The position numbers and the translations under genes are program-made. Source: Caldifarciminota bacterium (GTDB lineage: Bacteria; Hydrothermota; Tepidihabitantia; B36-G15). From it: a stretch of 43,366 nt of DNA. How positions within the stretch are numbered: position 1 is the first letter of the stretch; each line of letters starts with the position of its first letter. The DNA lies in the NCBI GenBank assembly GCA_003645615.1, contig QNBE01000002.1, positions 1-43,366 on the forward strand, given 5' to 3'. Shown piece by piece: positions 38,961 through 40,709 of the stretch. The notes under the pieces were generated by a model that had not been told where the DNA came from, searched no databases, and worked only from the letters and a program-made list of their open reading frames with translations.

Positions 38961-39829
38961 AAGCTGGCTATGTCACGATCATAGGACTTCCCAATGTTGG
39001 GAAGTCTACCCTTATGAACCGGATTCTGGGTCAGAAGATATCGATCGTCTCTAAGAAGCCCCAGACCACCAGACATAGGATTATTGGGATTCTGACAGAA
39101 AAGGACCATCAGGCCATCTTCGTCGATACCCCGGGTCTGATCGAACCAAGATATCAGCTTCAGGAGATAATGGTGAGGGCGATCGATAAGGCGTTAAAAG
39201 GGACCGATCTTGTTCTCTGGATGGTACCGGCTACCAGGATGCCGGCAGAGCCTGAGGTGAAGATTTCCCAGCGATTGGATCCCTTTCCTACCATCATTGC
39301 GATCAACAAGATCGATCTGGTTAAGAAAGATCAGCTCCTACCAATTATGGACTTCTTTAAGAAACTGGGAAAGGAGGATATCTATCCCATCTCAGCGCTT
39401 TATGGTGAGGGCGTGGGTGAGTTGAAGGAGTCCATTCTTAAGAGTTTACCTGAAGGGGAATTCTACTATCCCGAGGATATGATCACCGAGCATCCGGAGC
39501 GGTTCTTTATCGCCGAGATCATCAGAGAGAAGATCTTCGACCTGTATGAGGAGGAGATCCCCTACTCTACCACCGTCACCGTTGAGGAGTTTAAGGAGCG
39601 AGGGAAGGAGAAGCACTACATCCGGGCCATCATCTATGTCGAGCGGAGGAGTCAAAAAGGGATCATCATCGGAAAGAATGGCCAGATGCTCAAGAGGGTA
39701 GGGATGGAGGCGAGAAGTGCGATTGAAGAGTTTCTGGACCATCCGGTCTATCTCGATCTCTGGGTGAAGATCAAGGAGGGCTGGCGGCGGGATCTGGCCA
39801 AGATCAAGGAGCTCGGCTATCATCCTTAA
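38957..39829 (+). CDS. era: GTPase Era
   Basis: [63 protein letters not shown], KH domain [45 protein letters not shown]. Confidence 0.97.
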   Translation: [290 protein letters not shown]

Positions 39830-40709
39830 GTCCAGGATCGGAATTGCCTTAGGAGGGGGAGGAGCCAAGGGGCTCGCCCATATCGGAGTGCTGATCGCCC
39901 TTGAGGAGATGGGTATTAAATTTGATGCGGTGGTCGGCACCAGCATCGGTGCAATCATCGGTGGGCTCTTCGCCTTGGAGGGGTCAGCCCAGAATCTGAA
40001 GGAGAAGGCCAAGGAAATCATTACCTCCAAGGATTTTCTCTCCTTAGGACTTAACGCCTTTCGTAAAGATGGAACGATCTTCCACAAGCTGGCGGAAAAG
40101 TTCTATATGGGCAAACTCCTTTTTAAAGAAGCCCAGATCGATGTTGCCAAGACCGAACGGATCTTTCGAGACCTCTTTAAGGATGCGACCTTTGAACAGA
40201 CCAAGATCCCATTCGCCACCGTCGCCTTAGATCTTGCCACCGGGGATGACTTCGTCTTCGATCATGGCCCACTGATGATCGGCACCTGGGCCAGTGCTGC
40301 GATCCCTGGCATCTTTCCCCCTGTGGTCTATGATGAGAAGATCCTGATTGATGGTGGGGTGACCACTGATCTACCGGTGAGGATCTGCCGACGTTATGGT
40401 GTTGATGTGGTTATCGGGGTCTATCTCGGGGGATCGATCCTCCGTAAGGAGGAGTATAAGACGGGGTTTCAGATCCTAAAGCGGAGTGCGGAAATCCTCA
40501 ACTACCGTGTCAACGAACCGAACCTGATCGATGCCGATGTCCTAATCCATCCCCATCTCGAGCAGATCCACTGGGCAGACTTTTCCCGGATCGATGAGTG
40601 TGTTGAGGAAGGCAAGCATGCGGTCTTAAGGCGCCAGAAGGAGATAAGGGAGGCCCTCTCCCTGCGGAATCGTATCAAGAGATTATTTCGATTTCTTAAG
40701 CACCCTTAA
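39819..40709 (+). CDS. Patatin-like phospholipase (RssA/NTE-type); true start upstream of the ORF-track start, apparently non-canonical
   Basis: Frame upstream of GTG 39888 encodes IILKSRIGIALGGGGAKGLAHIGVLIALEEMGIKFDAVVGTSIGAIIGGLFALEG, with the patatin GGGGxxG oxyanion motif, GxSxG nucleophile motif and later DGGV. SD AAGGAG 39806-39811 is 7 nt before ATC 39819. Confidence 0.88.
   Translation: MILKSRIGIALGGGGAKGLAHIGVLIALEEMGIKFDAVVGTSIGAIIGGLFALEGSAQNLKEKAKEIITSKDFLSLGLNAFRKDGTIFHKLAEKFYMGKLLFKEAQIDVAKTERIFRDLFKDATFEQTKIPFATVALDLATGDDFVFDHGPLMIGTWASAAIPGIFPPVVYDEKILIDGGVTTDLPVRICRRYGVDVVIGVYLGGSILRKEEYKTGFQILKRSAEILNYRVNEPNLIDADVLIHPHLEQIHWADFSRIDECVEEGKHAVLRRQKEIREALSLRNRIKRLFRFLKHP

Follow-up and report, generated by a model that had tools for sequence, protein, structure and literature searches.

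A patatin-like phospholipase gene that follows era in the window (the whole 43,366-nt stretch analysed here) has no ATG, GTG or TTG at its conserved N-terminus. It is probable, at odds that we put at about 0.6, that a functional enzyme of the RssA/PlpD type is made by initiation at a near-cognate AUC codon, at 39822 or 39819, immediately ahead of the era stop, and that this is one case of a habit of the genome, in which ≈1% of the testable conserved genes would start at AUC, CUG or AUU. Near-cognate starts are of an already known kind. The window is contig C2 of a 2.2-Mb assembly of 186 contigs, 91% complete and 0.8% contaminated.

When the open reading frames were re-read, the patatin frame was found to be closed upstream by TGA at 39765–39767 and to lack ATG, GTG and TTG as far as the GTG at 39888, as the initial annotation had described. 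The residues encoded upstream of this GTG, IILKSRIGIALGGGGAKGLAHIG, do include the oxyanion-hole motif GGGGxxG that had been placed there (Table 1). Read from ATC 39819, the product scored 111.6 bits against the Pfam Patatin profile (profile positions 2–189; cut-off 27.7), compared to 82.7 bits when read from GTG 39888 (positions 19–189). The gathering score and the GGGGxxG, GxSxG and DGG motifs make the gene a member of PF01734, and the GGGGxxG, GTSIG and DGG motifs are shared with the RssA/PlpD patatin-like phospholipases. The closest solved structure was PlpD (5fqu, E 5.6e-39) and the top NCBIfam model was RssA, although at 125.8 bits the gene falls short of the 272-bit cut-off of the RssA equivalog (NF007623).

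Table 1. Features of the era–patatin junction (positions in the window) and other genes of the genome with no usual start codon at the conserved N-terminus, each with its candidate start codon (positions by locus). G040, single-contig relative of the same class; SD, Shine–Dalgarno sequence.
Feature	Position	Strand	Remarks
era (GTPase and KH domain)	38957–39829	+	intact; ATG start, TAA stop 39827–39829; Pfam MMR_HSR1, KH_2
AAGGAG, candidate SD	39806–39811	+	7 nt to ATC 39819, 10 nt to ATC 39822
ATC, candidate start codon	39819–39821	+	best SD spacing; putative
ATC, candidate start codon	39822–39824	+	aligned with Met1 of E. coli RssA (MRKIKIGLALGSG); putative
Patatin-like phospholipase CDS	39819–40709	+	N-terminus without ATG/GTG/TTG; ≈295–296 aa
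GGGGAKG, oxyanion-hole motif	39852–39872	+	5' of the first usual start codon
GTG, first in-frame canonical start	39888–39890	+	no SD match; oxyanion loop would be missing from the product
GTSIG, nucleophile elbow of the patatin Ser–Asp dyad	39936–39950	+	motif read from sequence
DGG, catalytic Asp motif	40350–40358	+	motif read from sequence
recO, CTG	L039 (contig C1) 12825–12827	+	at the G040 Met; SD AGGAGG, spacing 4; overlaps corC TGA (CTGA)
pth, ATC	L117 (contig C31), start near plus-strand 15733	−	at the G040 Met and TIGR00447 position 1; SD AAGGAGG, spacing 7
Rrf2/IscR-like regulator, CTG	L110 (contig C24), plus-strand 17497–17925	−	position 1 of several Rrf2 models
MurU-like nucleotidyltransferase, ATC	L056 (contig C16) 5077–5904	+	NF045761 position 1; adjoins upstream TAG
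NUDIX gene, likely ATT	L102 (contig C8), plus-strand 12025–12453	−	overlaps clpB stop

The arrangement that the initial annotation gave for the junction, with AAGGAG 7 nt before one ATC, a second ATC directly after it and the era TAA close behind, was correct at every position. Correctly spaced SD matches of at least 6 nt occurred at 19% of the usable canonical starts of this genome but at only 2.9% of in-gene ATC, CTG or ATT codons, so the AAGGAG stands above chance. It also supplies Lys–Glu codons in the constrained C-terminus of Era, and for that reason is not independent proof of a patatin start. RNA structure around the start was not unusual (z = +0.8).

A search of 64 genomes of the class, all from other orders, recovered 21 patatin orthologues at 42–47% identity, and the N-terminus with GGGGA[KR]G was kept in all 21. 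The initial annotation had proposed comparing orthologues in sister genomes for ATG or ATC at this position; in the class, every one of the 21 began with ATG (19) or GTG (2) and none with ATC. Their starts lie 7 residues before the GGGG motif in 19 cases and 8 residues in 2, whereas the candidate AUC codons lie 10 and 11 residues before it, meaning that the class orthologues start 2–4 codons further in. Judged by this alignment, the N-terminus keeps its place to within a few codons, but the usual start codon is missing there, and GTG 39888 is not a credible start for a working enzyme. The patatin gene shows two marks of a near-cognate start, the lack of a usual start and a near-cognate codon in a ribosome-binding context, but not another, a codon conserved in orthologues. 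Within the ≈1.5 kb of flanking sequence examined, era did not adjoin any of the 21, and a search of sister genomes yielded remote patatins only.

Initiation at AUC was the central proposal of the initial annotation. As the best single reading it stands, and it is strengthened by the other near-cognate genes described below, but the exact codon is not fixed, since ATC 39822 coincides with Met1 of E. coli RssA (MG1655), which begins MRKIKIGLALGSGAARGW, ATC 39819 is better spaced from the SD, and the class orthologues point to 39828–39833.

Stop-to-stop reading frames from ≈1.16 Mb of this genome were compared with those from 1.6 Mb of G040, a relative assembled as a single contig. About 400 gene pairs were testable (418 and 390 by two methods), and the candidates were curated by hand. 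Two comparisons flagged 36 and 25 frames, most of which were dropped by eye because of a nearby usual start, an antisense shadow, a contig edge or, in HdrA, a selenocysteine UGA. Five further genes had a conserved N-terminus upstream of every ATG, GTG and TTG: recO, pth, an Rrf2 regulator, a MurU-like gene and a NUDIX gene (Table 1). In four of the five (all but the NUDIX gene), a near-cognate codon falls exactly on position 1 of a profile or on the Met of the relative. The NUDIX gene has no ATG, GTG or TTG in its entire 143-aa frame. Some of the starts have neighbouring alternatives: in pth, a CTG one codon after the ATC, which overlaps the L25-like gene's stop (CTGA), and in the MurU-like gene an ATT and another ATC (SD GGAGG), both upstream. 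Upstream of the Rrf2 gene is a promoter-like pair, TTGACA-17-TAAGAT, so near that the mRNA could be leaderless.

The strongest near-cognate cases are pth and recO, not patatin, which is less clean because its class orthologues start 2–4 codons further in. Each of the two has one match in the genome (pth is single copy), and Pth is generally essential. The three genes, pth, recO and patatin, are also those of the six start-less genes that carry an SD of 6–7 nt; three SDs of at least 6 nt among six genes would arise by chance with a probability of ≈5e-4, a value uncorrected for picking among neighbouring codons. The codons CTG, ATC, ATT and ATA account for 11.65% of the sense codons in the aligned genes once ATG, GTG and TTG are set aside, and for all four Met1-pinned codons to fall in this set has a chance of ≈2e-4. 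Counting the codons opposite aligned Met residues gave a result too noisy to be used alone. Five of the six start-less genes (patatin, recO, pth, NUDIX and MurU-like) overlap or adjoin an upstream stop, and so do 143 of ≈303 canonical starts of this genome by a permissive count. Since about half of the canonical genes share the arrangement, it is not diagnostic, and the idea that start-less genes are enriched at such stops was dropped.

The alternative with the most bearing on the patatin gene is that a normal start overlapping the era stop was lost at the junction of the two genes, through an assembly error of one base or a real mutation of recent date; the organism would then have a normal gene or a newly arisen pseudogene. 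The initial annotation had set a simple indel aside because Era ends naturally. That reasoning fails, as a one-base change at the junction leaves Era intact: single-base changes that spare Era can put an ATG 7–8 residues before GGGG, as in the class orthologues, and the sequence after the junction, SRIGIALGGGG, fits the orthologue pattern M-x-[KR]-[FI]-GIALGGGG (L006/L018). What makes an indel less likely is the very low rate of indels genome-wide. In 152,698 aligned codons (≈458 kb) there were no frameshifts and one unexplained nonsense codon; the three split candidates in this genome proved to be two adjacent genes, an antisense shadow and an in-frame TGA. The 95% upper bound on the indel rate is thus ≈7e-6 per base, and a hit at the start of one gene would be ≈100 times rarer than the rate of start-less genes, although the split test shows only splits with two recognisable fragments and small losses can escape it. 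If substitutions were to account for five lost start codons among 400, the error rate would have to be ≈5e-3 and ≈93 nonsense codons would be expected, versus the one seen; the start-less set is therefore not sequencing error. The other 290 patatin codons, too, are open and conserved. For the patatin gene taken alone, an indel or substitution has a much lower prior than a near-cognate start has in this genome, and we regard an altered junction as unlikely. The one unexplained TGA interrupts the frame of a repeat protein (FRDHC*SDADLVGVRVTP; L046, contig C6, 14552–14554, + strand). The in-frame TGA of hdrA (MDCAI*ILGPKMMDVGRHP; L055, contig C15, 17743–17745, + strand), present in two G040 copies too, is at the known selenocysteine position.

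Points against AUC itself are that no orthologue has ATC, that the orthologues start nearer the GGGG motif, that the SD lies inside constrained Era codons, and, as set out below, the weakness of AUC as a start in E. coli and the lack of evolutionary switches to it. Termination–reinitiation at another codon, be it the near-cognate ATC 39837 just past the end of era or one where the orthologues start, would agree with the orthologue starts, which fall between the candidate codons, and has a precedent in E. coli, where reinitiation past an upstream stop is IF3-sensitive and non-AUG codons are used with matching mutant initiator tRNAs (PMC2268962). ATC 39837, however, would leave only MGIAL before the motif and has an SD match of just 4 nt, while the codons at the orthologue position, AAG and TCC, are not NCBI table 11 starts, which makes this route rather improbable. 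A truncated product from GTG 39888, the first canonical start and the one that a gene caller limited to ATG, GTG and TTG would choose, is much less probable still: it would be without the oxyanion loop conserved in all 21 orthologues, there is no SD match, and the 23 codons upstream show conserved coding. Equally hard to credit is a programmed +1 frameshift at the end of era (CAU CCU UAA G) giving an Era–patatin fusion. The patatin gene is indeed in the +1 frame of era with a suitably placed stop, and removal of one base upstream gives a 583-aa frame; but none of the 21 orthologues adjoins era or is fused to it, a stand-alone gene being the norm in the class, and there is no close RF2-like SD, the AAGGAG lying 12 nt from the CCU.

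Initiation at AUC comes out as the most likely reading, and extends to a tendency of the genome, though for the patatin gene itself it is probable rather than proven; that translation truly starts at AUC, at which of the two, and in what coupling to era, we infer from sequence. The initiator tRNA gene (L114) is ordinary, with a CAU anticodon and GGG/CCC anticodon-stem pairs. An altered initiator tRNA was rejected as an explanation, the only exact initiator-type arm being this normal CAU one, and loss of IF3 was rejected because a normal infC was found (L101, contig C7, near 1419–2144, + strand). No near-cognate AUH codon adjoins the conserved N-terminus of this infC, which would use either an ATG overlapping thrS or an odder start (GTC or GTA). 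With an ordinary CAU initiator and IF3 present, fMet-tRNA would have to pair with AUC despite a mismatch at the third position, and such weak third-base pairs are disfavoured by IF3 in vitro (PMC10158994). We favour a scheme in which the ribosome would be brought to the AUC by the AAGGAG, or by finishing era and re-initiating, and the ordinary initiator tRNA would decode AUC as fMet, with an output that may be low but sufficient.

NCBI table 11 lists CTG, ATT, ATC and ATA as starts, and E. coli infC and pcnB have AUU starts, that of infC being autoregulatory. The patatin gene resembles these two in having a near-cognate AUH start that would be read by the ordinary initiator tRNA; it differs in that AUC stands in a phospholipase gene with no evident regulatory reason, and in that ≈1% of the tested genes are concerned here, versus two genes there. 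Hecht et al., in 2017, reportedly found that AUC initiates only very weakly in E. coli, and to our knowledge natural AUC starts are very rarely documented; a literature search on AUC as an initiation codon returned no matching paper. The proteogenomic work of Baudet et al., from 2010, is said to have reported non-canonical initiation codons at an unusual rate in Deinococcus deserti, where the starts were proved by peptides rather than by comparative genomics alone as here, and the two lineages are not evidently close. In the sets of genes that are not highly expressed, AUH is the annotated start of 4 out of 4225 E. coli genes and 9 out of 4171 B. subtilis genes (PMC11052298, Table 3), and among 61,358 reconstructed AUG ancestors in 36 groups of close genomes there were two switches to CUG, one to AUU and none to AUC (PMC5622118). 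Translational coupling at an overlapping stop and start (PMC2268962) is similar in that the start lies at the stop of the upstream gene, as in recO, pth, NUDIX and MurU-like, but in this genome overlap is common and not special to start-less genes.

A proportion of ≈1% near-cognate starts is high, on a count that rests on one relative and hand curation, and annotation pipelines hide such starts. A broader generalisation, to which we give slightly less than even odds, is that start selection is relaxed throughout the lineage, with AUC, CUG and AUU serving ≈1–2% of genes, among them the only copies of pth and recO, alongside an ordinary initiator tRNA and IF3. Gene callers limited to ATG, GTG and TTG are blind to AUC starts and would misplace them; at ≈1% of genes, the predicted proteins of the lineage would be systematically truncated, here with loss of a catalytic loop. 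The lineage would also offer a natural system in which to study, outside E. coli, the control of start-codon stringency by IF3 and reinitiation. In the reverse comparison, the only convincing case in G040 was aspS, with an apparent ATT start and SD AGGAG (L096, 9628–9630, + strand); inspection also suggested an ATT start for the infC of G040 (SD AAGGAGGTGA; L120, near 2856, + strand). Elsewhere in the window, a large bacterial SRP RNA was found at 9121–9381 on the minus strand (Rfam RF01854, 144 bits).
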